NCBI GenBank assembly: GCA_017521425.1
Contig: JAFXCQ010000004.1
Span: 1-64,000, forward strand
Length of the DNA stretch: 64,000 nt
From: Clostridia bacterium
GTDB taxonomy: Bacteria > Bacillota > Clostridia > Oscillospirales > Acutalibacteraceae
Direction: 5' to 3'
Shown: piece after piece, positions 41,363-48,791 of the stretch
Numbering within the stretch: position 1 is the stretch's first letter
Layout: each line of letters opens with the position of its first letter
Made by a program: the position numbers and the translations under genes
The notes under the pieces: model-generated
The model's database searches: none
What the model saw: the letters and a program-made list of their open reading frames with translations, nothing else
Told to the model about the DNA's origin: nothing

Positions 41363-41968
41363 ATGGTACTCGAAAATAAATTAGGAATTACTTCTGCACC
41401 TGAACTTAATGAAGCCGAAGAAAAAATCAGCAAGAAAAAAGCTTTAGAGTTGTTTGAAAGCGGTAAATTAAACGAGCTTGAAGCAGGTAAATTTTCTTCA
41501 CTTAAAGCAATTCATAAAGCACTTTTTGATGAAATATATTATTTTGCAGGTGAAATCCGTACTGTTAATATTTCAAAAGGCAATTTCAGATTTGCACCTA
41601 TAATGTATCTTGAATCGGCACTCCAGAACATTGACAAAATGCCGCAATCTACTTTTGATGAAATAATTGAAAAGTATGTTGAAATGAATATTGCCCACCC
41701 GTTCAGAGAGGGCAACGGCAGAAGCACAAGAATCTGGCTTGACTGTATTTTGAAAAAAGAACTTGGGAAAGTTGTTGACTGGAGTCAGGTTGATAAGGAA
41801 GATTATCTTCTTGCTATGGAGCGTAGCCCGATTAAAGATATTGAAATTAAGCATATATTAAAAAATGCACTTACTGATAAAATTGATGACAGAGAAGTTT
41901 ATATGAAAGGCATTGACCATAGTTATTACTACGAAGGCTATACTACATTTAAAACTGAAGAATTATAA
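41363..41968 (+). CDS. Fic-domain protein adenylyltransferase with C-terminal autoinhibitory motif (class III)
   Basis: 201 residues. Fic enzymes transfer AMP (or another group) from a nucleotide to a target protein. The catalytic loop HPFREGNGR is complete at 112-120. At the C-terminus S187-x3-E191-G192 (in SYYYEGY) matches the (S/T)xxxE(G/N) inhibitory helix of class III Fic proteins such as NmFic, where the Glu blocks productive ATP binding until autoadenylylation. There is no adjacent antitoxin gene, as expected for class III. AGGAG ribosome site and its own promoter and terminator make it monocistronic. The target is unknown; DNA gyrase is the known NmFic target. Confidence 0.9.
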
Positions 41969-42010: not shown

Positions 42011-42781
42011 TTATTTTTCAATTTTATAATATGCAACATATACTTTATGCTTTATCTCGAATTCTTCCGGATATTTTTCGAGTAATTTCAAATGCTTTTT
42101 ATTCCATTTATTTAATGTATCTTCGTCCATAGATGCCATTGTACCACGACACGCTAACATTCTTCCGTGCCAGCTTTCACGAGTGAATGGAATATTGCAC
42201 TCAAATGTTTCAATTTTACCATTTTCAAAAGGATGGTTATACATATCTTTTGAGCCCGAAGCACCTGGAGTCCAAAGTTTATTTAACTTCTTGACAAGTT
42301 TATGGGATTCATTTGCAATTTCATCTGTAAGCACATAAGACATATATATTTTCACAAAAGTTCCATTTGGTTTTATTATTCTTTTAATCTCTTCTATAGC
42401 ATTTTCTCGTTCAAAATACCAAAAACACTGTGCTGCTGTAATACAGTCAAAACTATTGTCAGAAAATGGTGTTTTCTCTGCTCCTGAAACAAGAAATTCA
42501 ATGTTTTTAATATTTCTTTCATTTGCTATTTCTTTTGCTGCTAAAATCTGATTTTCTGAAATATCAATAGCTTTTATATCAGCACCAAATTCACAAAGGT
42601 TAAAAGGTATAACACCAGTACCGGTACCCATATCAAGCCAGGTAGTGTTTTTGTGACCGATGCCAAATGAATATAATTTTTCATAAAGTTCTTTCGGATA
42701 AATATCTCTGTATTTTGCATATTCTTTGGAAGTGTTTCCAAAATCAAAGTTTTTGCCATTATCAATATGATTTAATTTCAA
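42011..42781 (-). CDS. Class I SAM-dependent methyltransferase (UbiE-like)
   Basis: 256 residues. SAM motif WLDMGTGTGVIPFNL, then IKAIDISENQIL, SGAEKTPFSDNSFDCITAAQ and a late WTPGASGSKD region. This is a small-molecule-type methyltransferase; the substrate is unknown. The TTG start at 42781 is chosen because AAAGGAG lies 8 bases upstream; it overlaps the last bases of the phosphatase-like gene. Third and last gene of the operon behind the leader-peptide attenuator. Confidence 0.82.
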   Translation of the reverse strand: MKLNHIDNGKNFDFGNTSKEYAKYRDIYPKELYEKLYSFGIGHKNTTWLDMGTGTGVIPFNLCEFGADIKAIDISENQILAAKEIANERNIKNIEFLVSGAEKTPFSDNSFDCITAAQCFWYFERENAIEEIKRIIKPNGTFVKIYMSYVLTDEIANESHKLVKKLNKLWTPGASGSKDMYNHPFENGKIETFECNIPFTRESWHGRMLACRGTMASMDEDTLNKWNKKHLKLLEKYPEEFEIKHKVYVAYYKIEK

Positions 42782-42782
42782 T

Positions 42783-43904
42783 TTAATCACTCCTTTTTCT
42801 TTTCGTCTCAATAGCAATAAACGGAACAGTCATTTCTTCTTCGGTAAGTCCTGCATGCACACCAACCATTTCAAAATTGCCTCGTTTATAATCTATGTTA
42901 GTTTCATCAAGTGCAACAGCAAAAAAGTCGCCAATAAAGTCTGCGGTTTTCGTGTGTGGTGTGCCAAATCCTAACAGATTTTCTTTGAACACTTCATCTT
43001 TTGTCATCAATCTGAAAGACTCTCCAAATATTTTGTTGAACTCGGTTTTAAATTCTTCTGTTTTTCCATCTTTAACAAAGAAACTTAATGCTCTCGGTTC
43101 AACAGATGGTGGCATTTTTAATAACTCTACAAGTTCTGGATAATCTTCTAAATATTTAGTAACACCATCGCATTGTCCGTGGTCTGCGGTAATAATTACA
43201 AGTGAATCTTTCAATTTACCACAAAGTTTTTCTACTTCTCTGTTAATATGTAAAATTTGCTCGTGTGCTTCTTCACTTGTTACTCCGTGACCGTGCATTG
43301 CGTGGTCGGGTTGATTCCAATAAGCATAAATATATTTCTTTTTTCTCTTTTTAGAAAGTTTATATATAGTTTTGCAAATATCTTCGAAACTTTTAATTCG
43401 ACGGTTTGAAAAGAATGCTACACAGTACGCACTTTTTTTGCCTTTAACTTCTTCAATTCTTTTCATAATATTTTTATAAGGAATGTATTTGTGACCCACA
43501 TTGTATTTTGCGGCAGGTTCACCATTCCTTTGTAATGTATTTTTGAAAACTGAAACTGTTTCATCTATTTCTTTAAAATATAAGTCCCAACCAAGCCAGG
43601 CACACTCTAAAGGTGAATAACCACTTAAAATTGATGTTGTAGCGGCAACAGTTGTTGATGGAAAAACTGATGAAATATCTGTTACATAATGTTGTCTTAA
43701 AAAATCAGTTTCTTTAAGATGATAGTTCAAGGTGCTGGTTCCCAATCCGTCAAGAAGAACTACTATAACATTTTTGTAGTCTTTCTCAAGTAATTTATCA
43801 AATTCAGGTAAAGTTTTATGTTGGCAATCTGTTACACCGAAATGTTTTAAAACTGATGAAGCAATAGAAAGTATGCTTCTGTCGTAGTCTGGATATTTAA
43901 TCAT
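42783..43904 (-). CDS. Alkaline-phosphatase-superfamily phosphodiesterase/nucleotide pyrophosphatase
   Basis: 373 residues. The nucleophile and metal motifs of type I phosphodiesterases are visible: VVLLDGLGTSTL (Asp ligand), FPSTTVAATTSILSG (catalytic Thr), WNQPDHAMHGHG, ITADHGQCDG and GVHAGLTEEEM. It probably hydrolyses a phosphodiester or pyrophosphate of a nucleotide or a modified drug; the substrate is unknown. No signal peptide, so it is cytosolic. It lies 4 bases after the upstream methyltransferase and overlaps the next. Confidence 0.85.
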   Translation of the reverse strand: MIKYPDYDRSILSIASSVLKHFGVTDCQHKTLPEFDKLLEKDYKNVIVVLLDGLGTSTLNYHLKETDFLRQHYVTDISSVFPSTTVAATTSILSGYSPLECAWLGWDLYFKEIDETVSVFKNTLQRNGEPAAKYNVGHKYIPYKNIMKRIEEVKGKKSAYCVAFFSNRRIKSFEDICKTIYKLSKKRKKKYIYAYWNQPDHAMHGHGVTSEEAHEQILHINREVEKLCGKLKDSLVIITADHGQCDGVTKYLEDYPELVELLKMPPSVEPRALSFFVKDGKTEEFKTEFNKIFGESFRLMTKDEVFKENLLGFGTPHTKTADFIGDFFAVALDETNIDYKRGNFEMVGVHAGLTEEEMTVPFIAIETKRKRSD

Positions 43905-43908
43905 AGTT

Positions 43909-44742
43909 TTACTCCTTTCTCAGCACATCAAGTGTATGGTGTGATATGCCGACTAAATCCTGCCTTTCACAAGTTTTAAAATGATATCTGAGATACAAAT
44001 CATAAGTTTTGTCATCCATTTTATCAATAGCTTCTTTCATATGGCAAGTATAGCCATCAGTAGCAACGAAATGCAACCTATCCACACCAAAAATCTTTGT
44101 CAAATCGAATATTTCATCTTTTGTATATACCTTAAAAATTCCGTGTGGTGGAAAGTATGCTTCAAGTGAAACAGGATCGAATTCACCATCTTTAATCAGT
44201 TTGTCAATTCTGTTATTCTTAAAACAACAGAACATTGAAGGCTCAAGCATACAGTAAGCAACAAAAATGTATCCATCAGGTTTTGTAATTCTTATTGCTT
44301 CTGAAAGAGCTTTCTGTTGTTCCTCGGCTGTGTATAAGTGATACATAGGACCAAGTAACAGGGTTACATCATAGCTATTGTCTGGATATTCTGATAAATC
44401 AAGGGCGTTACCTTGTTTTATACTGACTTTTTCACCAGGCAATGTTTTAGTTTTGAATACTTCAATGTTGTGTTCAATAAGCTCAACTGCTTCAACTGAG
44501 AAACCTTTTTGAGCAAAGTAATGAGAATATCTGCCTGTTCCTGCTCCGATTTCTATAATTCTCATTTCATTGTTCAAATATTTCTCAATGTATTTTACAG
44601 TTGTTAAAAATTCAACTCTGCCGTGTTTAGATAAAAGACGAACATCCTCATTGTGTGTATTGTAGTAATCAACAAGGTAATCTCCTGTAGTATTGTGTTG
44701 GTTTTTAAAAAACTTTCTTCTTAATAAATTAACTAATTTCAC
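43909..44742 (-). CDS. Class I SAM-dependent methyltransferase behind a leader-peptide attenuator
   Basis: 277 residues. SAM motif RIIEIGAGTGRYSHYFA, VEAVELIEHNIE, GNALDLSEYPDNSYDVTLLLGP and a C-terminal FKTCERQDLVGISHHTLDVLRK segment. Family of cytosolic small-molecule methyltransferases; the substrate is unknown. The start at GTG 44742 is preferred because AAGGAG lies 8 bases upstream; GTG 44751 sits within the site. First structural gene of the operon. The upstream region holds a short translated leader and a terminator with an alternative antiterminator, so expression probably responds to ribosome stalling, as for several antibiotic-resistance genes. Confidence 0.85.
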   Translation of the reverse strand: MKLVNLLRRKFFKNQHNTTGDYLVDYYNTHNEDVRLLSKHGRVEFLTTVKYIEKYLNNEMRIIEIGAGTGRYSHYFAQKGFSVEAVELIEHNIEVFKTKTLPGEKVSIKQGNALDLSEYPDNSYDVTLLLGPMYHLYTAEEQQKALSEAIRITKPDGYIFVAYCMLEPSMFCCFKNNRIDKLIKDGEFDPVSLEAYFPPHGIFKVYTKDEIFDLTKIFGVDRLHFVATDGYTCHMKEAIDKMDDKTYDLYLRYHFKTCERQDLVGISHHTLDVLRKE

Positions 44743-44760
44743 TTTCTTCACTCCTTAAAT

Positions 44761-44811
44761 AAAATGATATAAAAATAAACGGTGTAAGTTTCTGCAGCAA
44801 CTTACACCGTT
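44761..44811 (-). terminator. Attenuator terminator between leader ORF and methyltransferase operon
   Basis: Stem AACGGTGTAAGTT / AACTTACACCGTT (13 bp, no mismatch), loop GCTGCAGA, then TATTTTTAT on the minus strand. It lies after the leader ORF and before the methyltransferase start. The 5' arm can instead pair with leader codons at 44863-44875. Confidence 0.8.
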
Positions 44812-44837
44812 ATAAACATATGGAAATATAAAAAATT

Positions 44838-44945
44838 TTATCTATCCAAAAATGAGTATAAAGGTATAAGCCTGCAAGTATCATAATCATACTGTGCAAG
44901 CCAATTTTGATGCATATCTTGTTTTTTAAGAAGATATGTGTTCAT
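44838..44945 (-). CDS. 35-residue leader peptide of an attenuator
   Basis: ATG 44945 is preceded by GAGGT at 8 bases spacing. The peptide starts MNTYLLKKQDMHQN and ends RLIPLYSFLDR. No known family recognised. Codons 3-10 can form an 8-bp hairpin (CATATCTT/AAGATATG). The segment GCAGGCTTATACC (codons for part of C-R-L-I-P) can pair with GGTGTAAG and CTGC of the downstream terminator, giving an antiterminator. With a consensus promoter upstream and a terminator downstream, this is a self-contained leader cassette before the methyltransferase operon. A free-standing small protein is the alternative. Confidence 0.7.
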   Translation of the reverse strand: MNTYLLKKQDMHQNWLAQYDYDTCRLIPLYSFLDR

Positions 44946-44973
44946 AGCCTTTACCTCAAACTGTATTTTTGTC

Positions 44974-45002
44974 AATATAACACACAAATTTTGAGTTGTC
45001 AA
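44974..45002 (-). promoter_or_regulatory. SigA promoter of the leader/methyltransferase operon
   Basis: Consensus TTGACA, 17-base spacer, TATATT on the minus strand, about 28 bases before the leader ATG. Confidence 0.85.
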
Positions 45003-45307: not shown

Positions 45308-45409
45308 TAGTGGAATTTGCTTTTTATACCACAATAAACCAATCGAGTACAACGAGTAAAATGTTTGCGAAGCCTAAAAGGTGGGCAAAGTTTAAATAAA
45401 GGTGATAAA

Positions 45410-45967
45410 ATGAACAATGAGAATATCATTCACATTGATGCCAAAGATTTCTTTTTGGTAGAGCCAAGTGAAATATATGCTGAACAAATCAGTGAATACA
45501 GACAAGAGTTTTTAGATGCCGATTCTTCTATGGATGGTTGTGGTCCACTCAGAAGATGTGAAAATCCAATTGAATACATAGCAGAATGTAAAAAATACAA
45601 AAACAAAGAAACAATACCAAATGACTTTGTTGTTACAACGCAGTTTTTATATGTGCGAAAAAGTGATATGCGTATAGTTGGAATGATACAGGTAAGACAT
45701 TACTTTAATGATTGGCTTTCTGAATTTGGTGGACATATTGGGTATGCAATAAGACCTACTGAAAGAAGAAAAGGCTACGCAGTTTCAATGCTTAAAGCGA
45801 TTCTGCCATATTGTAAAGAACTTGGACTTGAAAAAATACTTATCTCTTGTATTGATGGCAACATAGGTAGCGAGAAAACAATACTCAAAAATGGTGGGGT
45901 TTATGAATCAACTGTATGTGAACCAGACAGAAAACGAAATTTAAAGAGGTTTTGGATTACTTTATAA
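45410..45967 (+). CDS. GNAT-family N-acetyltransferase
   Basis: 185 residues. Acetyl-CoA loop of the RRKGYA type (RPTERRKGYAVSMLKAIL) with the preceding GGHIGYAIRP strand and the late ENGG-like KNGGVYES motif. Resembles acetyltransferases that modify small molecules or protein N-termini; the substrate is unknown. The start at 45410 follows AAAGGTG. First gene of a plus-strand cluster of four, alternating with NUDIX hydrolases. Confidence 0.85.
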   Translation: MNNENIIHIDAKDFFLVEPSEIYAEQISEYRQEFLDADSSMDGCGPLRRCENPIEYIAECKKYKNKETIPNDFVVTTQFLYVRKSDMRIVGMIQVRHYFNDWLSEFGGHIGYAIRPTERRKGYAVSMLKAILPYCKELGLEKILISCIDGNIGSEKTILKNGGVYESTVCEPDRKRNLKRFWITL

Positions 45968-45992
45968 TGTGAAAAAATCAAGGGTGATTTAG

Positions 45993-46469
45993 TTGGAGAA
46001 TAAAGATTACATAAAATGGATTCGTGGCAAAGTAGGTCACGAGAAAATTATTATTGTTTATGCAGGTGGTTGCATATTTAATAAGAATGGTGAAGTCTTG
46101 CTTCAAAAACGAACTGATTGTAATAAGTGGGGCTTCCCTGGTGGTGCTATAGAACTCGGTGAAACACCTGAAATGGCAGCTAAACGAGAAGTTAAAGAAG
46201 AAACTTGTTTGGATGTAGAAGTAGGTAATCTCATTGGAATATATACAGATTCAGATGTTATCTGTGCTAATGGCGATAAAGTTCACAGTATTTGCATTGG
46301 ATATGAAATGAGTGTTGTTGGTGGAGAGTTGATTTGTGATGAAAACGAAACATTAGAACTCAAATATTTTTCATTAGACAATATACCAGAATTATTTTGT
46401 AAACAACATGAAGAACTTTTGAGAGATATAAAAAGGGTGAGAATAAGTGATGTTAAGTCCCAAAATTGA
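45993..46469 (+). CDS. NUDIX hydrolase
   Basis: 158 residues, TTG start with GGGTGA upstream. The Nudix box is complete in outline (GGAIELGETPEMAAKREV then KEETCLDV), with Cys where the last Gly is usual. NUDIX enzymes cleave nucleoside diphosphates linked to another group. The N-terminal VYAGGCIFNKNGEVLLQKR strand and W-G-F-P-G are typical. It ends 20 bases inside the next gene. Confidence 0.88.
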   Translation: MENKDYIKWIRGKVGHEKIIIVYAGGCIFNKNGEVLLQKRTDCNKWGFPGGAIELGETPEMAAKREVKEETCLDVEVGNLIGIYTDSDVICANGDKVHSICIGYEMSVVGGELICDENETLELKYFSLDNIPELFCKQHEELLRDIKRVRISDVKSQN

Positions 46470-46983
46470 AACAGATAGATTAATTTTAAGAAGATATAAA
46501 GAAAGTGATATTGATGCTATATATGAAATAATAACAGACGAAAGATTATCAAAATATATTAAATTTCCTAAATTGTCGAAGCAAGAAGAGTTAGAATGTA
46601 TTAGGCAATGGATAAACGAAGCAGATGAATCAAAATATGAAAAATGGGTAATTGAATTAAAAAAAGATGGAACAGTAGTTGGCAATATTGATGTTAATAC
46701 TGTAGTAAAAAAACACAATTATTGCAATGTTGGATATACCATAAGATATAATTATTGGGGAAATGGATATGCTTCAGAAGCTCTTGAAGCGGTTTCTAAT
46801 CATTTGTTAGAAAATAGTGGCTACTATTTAGTTGAATGTTCATGTAATGAATTAAATACTCAATCATCCAAGGTTATGCTTAAAGCCGGTTTTAAAAAAG
46901 ATGGATATATTAAAAACAGAAGATTAAATAAAGATGGCACTTATTCTGGTGTGGAGTATTATAGCAAAACTAAAGAGTTGTAA
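46450..46983 (+). CDS. RimJ/RimL-type GNAT acetyltransferase
   Basis: 177 residues. Opens IETDRLILRRYKESD, the hallmark of the RimJ/RimL/SpeG-like branch. Acetyl-CoA region YNYWGNGYASEALEAV and N-terminal-type end SSKVMLKAGFKKDGYI. The ATG at 46450 follows GGGTGA. It overlaps the NUDIX gene, so they are translationally coupled. More AT-rich than its neighbours in codon choice, which may hint at separate acquisition. The target is unknown. Confidence 0.87.
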   Translation: MLSPKIETDRLILRRYKESDIDAIYEIITDERLSKYIKFPKLSKQEELECIRQWINEADESKYEKWVIELKKDGTVVGNIDVNTVVKKHNYCNVGYTIRYNYWGNGYASEALEAVSNHLLENSGYYLVECSCNELNTQSSKVMLKAGFKKDGYIKNRRLNKDGTYSGVEYYSKTKEL

Positions 46984-47048
46984 TATTAATGCTTGAATAG
47001 GAGGAATATTTTAAAACGCAAATTTGTATGGGATAAAGGTGAAAAACT

Positions 47049-47507
47049 ATGAGTTATTTAAGCGAACTTCGTAAAATTGTAGGACACAGACCATTACTTT
47101 CTGCTGGTGCTACTGTTCTTGTAATAAAAGATGGTAAAATTCTTTTAAATCTTCGTTCTGACACAGAAACCTGGGGTATCCCCGGTGGTGGCTTAGAACT
47201 TGGTGAATGTTTAGAAGAAACTGCATTTCGTGAATTAAAAGAAGAAACAGGTCTTACTGCTGAAAAGATGACACTTGTTACTGTATTGTCAGGAAAAGAT
47301 TTTTATTTTGTTTACCCTAATGGTGATATGTTATATTCAGTCGTATCTTTATACCTTGCTGAAAATGTCAGTGGTGAATTAAAAATTACAGATGGTGAAA
47401 GTCTTAAACTTCAATACTTTGACTTCGATAATTTACCAAATCTCGAAAGCAGAGCAAAAACAATGATTGAGTGGTTGAAGAAAAACAGGAAAGATTTGAT
47501 TGGGTAG
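47049..47507 (+). CDS. NUDIX hydrolase
   Basis: 152 residues. Nudix box GGGLELGECLEETAFREL followed by KEETGL fits Gx5Ex7REUxEExGU. The N-terminal substrate strand is GATVLVIKDGKILLNLRSD. A remnant reading frame with its own AGGAGG (near 46999) but no proper start runs into this gene and stops at the ATGA junction (47049-47052), suggesting a lost upstream gene. Followed by a strong terminator. Confidence 0.9.
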   Translation: MSYLSELRKIVGHRPLLSAGATVLVIKDGKILLNLRSDTETWGIPGGGLELGECLEETAFRELKEETGLTAEKMTLVTVLSGKDFYFVYPNGDMLYSVVSLYLAENVSGELKITDGESLKLQYFDFDNLPNLESRAKTMIEWLKKNRKDLIG

Positions 47508-47862: not shown

Positions 47863-48651
47863 TTAAATTACCCCATAAAAATGAATTATATTCATATCTT
47901 CACTCATCTCGAGTCCGTGGCTGCCGCATTCACCGTCTATTTCGTGGCAACCGTGGTCGGGTGCAAAACCTATTAAAGTGTTATGATTTTTCCAGTTTTC
48001 TTTAACTGCTTTTGCTAAAATGTTAAAAGCATTCACATTATGCTTCAATTCGTTTATTGAGTTTTCGTGTTCAGGCCCGAATTTATGCATTGTACCATCA
48101 TAATTTCCGTTATAGACTGCAATAAAATCGTATTTATCTTCTTTTATAAGCTCTATTGCTTTTTCATTTGCTTCGTCCGGTGTTTCTACTATAAAATAGT
48201 CCATATTTCTCTCTAAAAATATTTTTGACATACTGTCGTTACCTGTTGATACAATACAAGGCTTTTTACCCGCACGGATTAACGCATCAAATACTGAATC
48301 AGTTTTAATCACCGGTTTTTCATATTTCTGAATTCCGTGTACTGTCGGTTCTGCTCCTGTGTACATTGTACCAAAGCAAACAGGTGTTACAGAAGGCATT
48401 ACCGTTTTTAAAGGTAATGTAAGCTGTGTATTTAACATTACATCAGAAAAAAGTCCTGTATATTTTTCAAAAATCCAGAGTGCAACTGCATCAGGGTTAT
48501 ACATTAAAACTCTGTCAATTTTTTTATTTTCTGTAAATTTATCAAGCACATCAATAGACTTTTTACTTTCTTTTGGTGACTCTACACCTAAAGCATTACA
48601 AAGTGAAGAAGCAAGTCCTGTTAATTTTAAATCACAATAAATATCCTGCAT
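47863..48651 (-). CDS. Alkaline-phosphatase-superfamily hydrolase, short form
   Basis: 262 residues. Motifs of the AP superfamily in shortened form: VMPSVTPVCFGTMYTG (nucleophile region with Thr), the metal motif GNYDGTMHKFGPEH, APDHGCHEIDGECGSHG. Lacks part of the N-terminal Asp-metal segment of the 373-residue homologue at 42783, so activity may differ. The ATG at 48651 follows CTGGAG; longer frames upstream lack a site. Substrate unknown. Confidence 0.7.
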   Translation of the reverse strand: MQDIYCDLKLTGLASSLCNALGVESPKESKKSIDVLDKFTENKKIDRVLMYNPDAVALWIFEKYTGLFSDVMLNTQLTLPLKTVMPSVTPVCFGTMYTGAEPTVHGIQKYEKPVIKTDSVFDALIRAGKKPCIVSTGNDSMSKIFLERNMDYFIVETPDEANEKAIELIKEDKYDFIAVYNGNYDGTMHKFGPEHENSINELKHNVNAFNILAKAVKENWKNHNTLIGFAPDHGCHEIDGECGSHGLEMSEDMNIIHFYGVI

Positions 48652-48791
48652 AAGAACAACTCCAGATAATTTTTTAAATATTATATCATAAAAAGAAAAA
48701 TAATTAAACAAAAATATTGCACTTTACTTACTATTTTGGTAGAATTATACTGTATAATTATGCAACTAATTTTTATTACAAGGAGTTTAGT

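Follow-up and report, generated by a model that had tools for sequence, protein, structure and literature searches.

A predicted leader-peptide transcription attenuator family of gut Clostridia ahead of exchangeable genes for putative small-molecule-modifying enzymes

Amino-acid attenuators of the trp and his type depend on competition among three or four RNA strands, the outcome of which is decided by the position of the ribosome in a leader open reading frame. In Bacillus subtilis the methyltransferase gene tlrB (yxjB, coding for RlmAII) is preceded by a leader peptide and an intrinsic terminator, and a stalled ribosome prevents termination; the leader has nine codons with an RYR arrest motif, the ribosome occludes the terminator base, and there is a second hairpin that sequesters a Shine-Dalgarno (SD) sequence (available text of PMC6851288). 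The ABC-F ATPase genes cplR, vmlR and lsaA are preceded by upstream ORFs of 3-4 codons lying in a 5' hairpin, with an antibiotic-stalled ribosome and a terminator downstream, cplR being a Clostridioides example (available text of PMC10201436). The mef(E)/mel and erm(K) systems likewise use a leader peptide and transcriptional attenuation with alternative stems; the macrolide motif MRLR is found in their leaders, which control efflux or Erm (available text of PMC4335068).

Here we describe a locus in a 64,000-nucleotide stretch of a Clostridia bacterium contig (hereafter the window) that resembles tlrB in having a leader peptide and an intrinsic terminator before a methyltransferase gene, but differs in that the leader has 35 codons, has no R/K-X-R/K motif, and is combined with a long antiterminator and an SD-sequestering anti-antiterminator. 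It also differs from the ABC-F attenuators, since the leaders here are 33-38 codons long and precede operons of group-transfer enzymes; from mef(E)/mel and erm(K), having neither MRLR in the leader nor an efflux or Erm gene behind it; and from the trp and his type, having neither codon runs nor biosynthetic genes. Literature searches, which mostly excluded subscription papers and included the available text of PMC6429828 and PMC2965389, returned no description of this attenuator. We consider it probable that the locus is a leader-peptide transcription attenuator of a large, diverged gut-Clostridia family, in which a held-up ribosome turns on operons for small-molecule-modifying enzymes. The case for an attenuator is strong, ribosome-stress sensing by the leader is likely, and antibiotic modification by enzymes of the MT1, PDE, MT2 and GNAT types is plausible. 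The parts, their conservation, the pairing and the exchangeable genes are read from sequence, and the range of inducing stall positions is computed.

The promoter, leader ORF, terminator and an MT1-PDE-MT2 operon follow one another on the minus strand. The promoter, TTGACA-17 nt-TATATT (44974-45002; -35 at 45002-44997 and -10 at 44979-44974), matches 11 of the 12 consensus bases, has a TG preceding the -10, and ranks first of the 14 promoter-like sites that a 2-kb scan gave. The leader ORF (44838-44945, minus strand) has GAGGT as its SD and 35 codons plus a stop, coding for MNTYLLKKQDMHQNWLAQYDYDTCRLIPLYSFLDR. The intrinsic terminator (44778-44811, minus strand) consists of a 13-bp stem and an 8-nt loop followed by a T-rich tail, and the 204-nt leader RNA folds with a z score of -5.8, a stability equaled by none of 200 shuffles. 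A first-pass annotation of this DNA had reported a promoter, a 35-codon ORF with ribosome site, a 13-bp terminator and a methyltransferase gene, and all of these are present at the positions it gave.

The antiterminator 5' strand (segment 2, GCAGGCTTATACC, 44863-44875, minus strand) is complementary to GGTGTAAG (44808-44801) and to CTGC (44797-44794), so that the pairing with the terminator 5' arm and CTGC described in the first-pass annotation is indeed there. The whole antiterminator (44794-44875, minus strand) is a long hairpin running from codon 24 to the terminator loop, and ending at the CTGC within it. A further helix, P1, is formed by the leader SD and start-codon region (TGAGGTAAAGG plus TATGA, 44942-44958, minus strand) and the complementary strand TTATACCTTTATACTCA (44853-44869, minus strand), which comprises the 3' part of segment 2 and the bases after it. 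Because the SD/start region also pairs into segment 2, three RNA states compete, and the locus appears to be a three-way switch between the leader SD, the antiterminator strand and the terminator. P1 encloses both early hairpin A (CATATCTT/AAGATATG, CATATC/GATATG, 44913-44938, minus strand) and hairpin B, in which the WLA codons GGCTTGCA pair with TGCAGGCT (44869-44902, minus strand) in competition with the antiterminator. The first-pass annotation had proposed that two structures exclude one another; both are conserved, but it missed the third strand, the leader SD, and the antiterminator is longer than it described. Its early hairpin is also present, but extends over codons 3-11 rather than 3-10.

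Pairing statistics were obtained from one alignment of 28 window-class leaders. All 28 retain a leader ORF with an SD and an intrinsic terminator between the leader and the first gene, and 26 have a promoter score of at least 10 (of 12), versus 2.5% of shuffles. All 13 terminator pairs are intact in all 28 leaders (364 of 364 cells), whereas sliding controls are 30-44% paired; neither the pairing percentage nor the covariation score was reached by any of 500 letter shuffles. Changes on both sides occur at three of the 13 terminator pairs, a number also reached by 54 of the 500 shuffles. Every one of the 28 leaders keeps all 16 pairs of the antiterminator core, one of which is compensated (U-A to C-G, in four leaders), and a weak, short inner stem varies by lineage (UGG/CCA, UCG/CGA or UGAAAU/AUUUCA) while persisting in the minimum-energy fold. 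The whole antiterminator of 29 pairs is 89.8% paired, which is not above its letter-shuffle control (reached by 347 of 500). P1, hairpin A and hairpin B have 92.8%, 92.9% and 100% of their cells paired in the 28 leaders, the last including every cell of six pairs; none of the three has a compensated pair or covariation above letter shuffles, and the short window-class P1 taken alone is beyond shuffles in just three of the 28. This absence of covariation above shuffles, in P1, A and B as in the whole antiterminator, is explained by sequences that hardly vary. The first-pass annotation had named loss of the leader ORF or of the pairing in homologous loci as the outcome that would count against a leader-ORF attenuator, and both were found to be conserved.

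More diverged relatives were sought at loci with homologues of MT1, the first gene of the operon, which are present in 58 of 295 genomes of the order (E 1e-45), the window's own included. A strict detector that looks for a terminator and a leader ORF with SD was applied to 72 MT1 loci not belonging to the window class; it flagged 18 and found no such leader at the other 54, although it misses some (L016, L020, L131, L132, L145, L180 and L182-L184, for example, were found by a complementarity scan). A leader:terminator helix beyond shuffles (p ≤0.05) is present in 12 of the 18 flagged loci, and six have no significant helix. It is highly improbable that we are looking at an ordinary terminator with only partial termination and a spurious ORF. 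Intergenic DNA often contains terminators and short ORFs, and the same detector flagged six of 147 control ORFs from these loci, but two of the six themselves belong to the attenuator family, the strong promoter lies directly 5' of the window's leader with no likely gene among the ORFs of at least 60 codons ending just upstream of it on the same strand, and the competing helices are conserved across lineages.

The best evidence for a switch is the conservation of both helices in a sister class, taken from aligned sequences of 21 leaders that were hand-chosen for a shared segment 2 motif. The helix between the ribosome-binding site (RBS) and segment 2 is paired in 20-21 of the 21 over eight columns, three of which are compensated (C-G/U-A, A-U/G-C and A-U/C-G), and the helix between segment 2 and the terminator is paired in 19-21 of the 21 over 12 columns; compensatory changes fall in both competing helices. 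In a larger set, the RBS helix is beyond shuffles in 19 of 32 sister leaders. Shared sequences in segment 2 and the terminator suggest a single attenuator family that is old and has diverged. Many otherwise unrelated sister leaders (including L130, L132, L134 and L140) have an Asn-rich stretch (NN, NT, NVN) near codons 8-12.

These data also bear on whether the element could be a ligand- or protein-binding RNA, such as a SAM-type riboswitch, with the short ORF accidental. A methyltransferase is the first operon gene, the leader is strongly structured, and selection on the peptide is not visible (see below), all of which would fit a riboswitch; even so we regard it as very unlikely. No Rfam family, SAM riboswitch and T-box included, reaches its gathering score in the window and 15 related loci, and a search of the leader region down to E 5 gave only sub-threshold Rfam matches. 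Moreover, an ORF with SD is kept in 28 leaders, with in-frame indels in 25, the SD is itself a switch strand with compensatory changes in the sister class, and the same switch lies ahead of homologues of acetyl- and nucleotidyl-transferases and of a kinase-like protein.

A switch operated by a translating ribosome could work as follows. With no ribosome, or with the leader fully read, the SD/start region and hairpin B would hold segment 2 and the terminator would form, leaving the operon off. A ribosome held at about codons 11-20, near the invariant WLA (W and L in all 28 leaders, A in 27), would open P1 and hairpin B and free segment 2, which would then pair with the 5' arm and loop of the terminator ahead of synthesis of the 3' arm, so that RNA polymerase would read on. 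A ribosome at the stop codon would cover segment 2, and the terminator would win.

We modeled stalling with partition functions computed for the RNA that a ribosome leaves uncovered. In this folding the antiterminator probability is 0 in all 28 window-class leaders without a ribosome, and in the window leader it rises to 0.5 or more only when codons 12-19 occupy the P site, a predicted stall region that surrounds W15-L16-A17 and agrees with a switch operated by a stalled ribosome. An inducing range of stall positions is predicted for 16 of the 28 window-class leaders, always within codons 11-20, and for two of 20 sister leaders; in the other 12 window-class and 18 sister leaders the antiterminator never reaches 0.5 at equilibrium, so kinetics must decide there. 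When folding is restricted to RNA preceding the terminator 3' arm, with no ribosome, the antiterminator probability is 0.97 in the window leader and 0.83, 0.34 and 0.19 in three others. The antiterminator is thus favored early without a ribosome in two of the four, and the off state may need translation to the stop codon.

Indels between WLA and segment 2 preserve the frame in 25 of 28 leaders, which argues for translation. The ratio pN/pS is 0.89 in frame for the first 21 codons versus 0.60 and 0.92 in the other frames, and 0.58 for the nine C-terminal codons versus 0.36 and 1.55, so that no peptide-level constraint is visible. In one clade (L072, L085 and L093) a frame shift after WLAQHDYQ has removed the C-terminal third, RLIPLYSF, while the antiterminator RNA pairing is kept. 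The window leader is not an upstream ORF of 3-4 codons and its sequence contains neither R/K-X-R/K nor IFVI, known arrest motifs of antibiotic-inducible attenuators. A specific arrest peptide like those of erm leaders is unsupported.

The conserved tryptophan raises the alternative of an amino-acid-starvation attenuator, in which the ribosome stalls at a hungry Trp (or Tyr or Cys) codon and the signal is charged tRNA, as when a tRNA synthetase is inhibited. W15 is invariant in the window class, it lies within the predicted inducing stall region of the window, and Trp occurs somewhere in 25 of 32 sister leaders, its codon starting 10-15 nt 5' of segment 2 in 19 of the 28 sister leaders listed. 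However, the leaders have no codon runs, the genes controlled are not for amino-acid synthesis or transport, and seven of the 32 sister leaders have no Trp; the UGG codon also lies within RNA hairpins, which could account for its conservation without the peptide, so this conservation is not assignable to sensing. We find starvation sensing quite unlikely.

The window class of leader is conserved across several genera of one family. The leader peptide is present in five of 22 genomes of the genus, and of the 398 genomes in a family sample 18 pass at E 0.01, of which 15 were judged true and three chance on inspection; the 15 consist of 11 with E below 1e-13, among them the window's own, and four weaker ones (G368, G417, G337 and G264), which have the leader, terminator and MT1. 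Four of 394 genomes of an order sample pass, two true (both of the same family) and two by chance. A DNA pattern recovered 27 loci from named genomes, all of them metagenome-assembled genomes titled Clostridia or Oscillospiraceae bacterium, and many labeled as sheep, goat or deer gut samples. As far as sampled, the window leader class is restricted to the family and patchy within it.

Three genes make up the window's operon, all on the minus strand. MT1 (43909-44742) most likely starts at the GTG at 44742 rather than at 44751, as this is where homologues start (MKLFDL...) and the first GTG lies immediately next to the SD. It has the Rossmann-like fold and family profile of a class I SAM-dependent methyltransferase, and its nearest folds are small-molecule, protein and RNA enzymes with Z values close together. 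MT1 was considered as an Erm or 23S rRNA methyltransferase and rejected, scoring 23.2 bits with NF000499, far under the cutoff of 212, and the matches listed for it contain no RlmA model or structure. PDE (42783-43904) is a member of the type I phosphodiesterase/nucleotide pyrophosphatase family (PF01663), and MT2 (42011-42790), a second class I methyltransferase with a likely GTG start at 42790, overlaps its end.

The genes behind the window-class leader are exchangeable. At least one gene of the exchangeable cassette comes next in each of the 27 named loci, the first being MT1 in 26 and PDE in one. Besides MT1-PDE-MT2 in the window, the cassettes include MT1-nucleoside phosphorylase-MT2 (G002), PDE-GNAT-MT2 without MT1 (G012), MT1-PDE-GNAT (in several), MT1-GNAT and MT1-PDE-phosphorylase. 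Six of the 27 show MT1 alone (L076, L080, L089, L090, L096 and L097), five of which stop within 1.1 kb of the leader start; wider stretches show a 45% MT1 and no other cassette gene in the lineages of L080 and L096. The fixed set of two methyltransferases and a phosphodiesterase given in the first-pass annotation does not hold, as the content varies behind one leader class and MT1 stands alone in these two lineages. Two loci, L091 and L095, have a common leader peptide, yet their MT1s are 87% and 44% identical to the window's, a difference that, judged from sequence, is a swap of the first gene. A shortened PDE frame lies behind the leader in L071 (from 4485, 58 codons) and L079 (from 6734, 204 codons), and PDE may be decaying in some lineages. 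Elsewhere, an MT1 operon is extended by a tandem GNAT, a 2H phosphoesterase (PF13563), the kinase-like protein and a GNAT; the four solved relatives of the operon GNAT include MccE (3.4e-5), a lead only.

Other genes are found behind sister attenuators. The complementarity scan, which covered 163 loci and required leader:terminator complementarity, gave 37 downstream genes, of which 34 are MT1-type (including five GNAT-MT1 fusions and two more distant MT1b), with one PDE, one ANT(6) homologue and one probable chance match; the MT1 share is biased because most of these loci had been selected for MT1 or PDE. A pattern search that did not use MT1 as an anchor, although its pattern was derived from MT1-linked leaders and its genome sample overlapped the earlier ones, yielded 14 matches, spread over 13 of 280 genomes; the reversed pattern yielded none. 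The genes 3' of these matches are MT1 (six), GNAT-MT1 fusion (two), MT1b (two), P-loop kinase-like (two) and GNAT (one), with none called at one. The GNAT-MT1 fusions (L020, L180, L182, L183 and L184) have an attenuator leader of the type VTMLR...LALSYSF. The P-loop kinase-like protein GPHAVGKMTVGQELAK (L205, L217, L197 5859-6458 and L200 3050-3631), twice immediately behind an attenuator, has no match in Pfam, NCBIfam or PDB searches, and no family model names either it or MT1 as a resistance enzyme. An attenuator of the same family precedes an ANT(6) homologue (L148, minus strand, about 270-600 in reverse-complement coordinates, and L194 3864-4730) on a contig that additionally has an MT1. 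The gene behind the L148 attenuator is a clear relative (PDB 2pbe, 1.1e-58), which we name a homologue only, as it scores 248.9 bits with NF033084 and the NCBIfam cutoff is 420.

Group-transfer enzymes with a phosphodiesterase or phosphorylase, distributed patchily, exchanged behind a leader, and including fusions and one ANT(6) homologue, are most economically read as inducible antimicrobial modification. That attenuators of this family repeatedly precede genes for methyltransferases, acetyltransferases and putative phosphotransferases, and in one case a nucleotidyltransferase homologue, lends indirect support to the resistance-like module that the first-pass annotation had proposed. The signal would be stalling by a ribosome-targeting antimicrobial, and MT1, GNAT, PDE or the nucleoside phosphorylase, and MT2 would modify that antimicrobial or its target. 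The same attenuator could instead sense a general slowdown of translation, as in nutrient stress, with enzymes for metabolite repair or housekeeping. Members of the PDE, nucleoside phosphorylase and 2H phosphoesterase families often have metabolic roles and the leader peptides diverge freely, but the patchy distribution, the exchange of parts behind one leader class, the GNAT-MT1 fusions and the ANT(6) homologue under the same switch look more like detoxification, and we consider a housekeeping role rather unlikely. Only tentatively do we extend the antimicrobial reading to an undescribed inducible detoxification regulon, in which one ancient family of ribosome-sensing attenuators across an order would control interchangeable methyl-, acetyl-, phospho- and nucleotidyl-transferases, phosphodiesterases and a nucleoside phosphorylase against ribosome-targeting natural products met in the gut, nucleoside- or nucleotide-like compounds being a candidate target class.

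If this is right, these long leaders, with their defined three-way RNA switch, add a family to the attenuators that sense the ribosome, and the switch can serve as a flag. The genes behind it, most of which (MT1, the GPHAVGK kinase-like protein, PDE and GNAT) have no assigned function, would become candidates for the inducible inactivation of translation inhibitors in bacteria of ruminant and other guts, and the question of which unannotated enzymes are resistance enzymes would become directly testable.

The surroundings of the window's operon also contain some recurrent genes. A Fic protein gene (41363-41968, plus strand; NF046029 above cutoff) flanks the operon, and the same gene flanks the cassette in L022 (G002) and L024 (G012). 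On the other side, a divergent GNAT-NUDIX-GNAT-NUDIX run (45365-47507, plus strand) adjoins the leader, and L025 (G016) has a similar GNAT and two similar NUDIX genes at the corresponding place; a second gene of the type I phosphodiesterase family (PF01663) lies at 47863-48711 on the minus strand.
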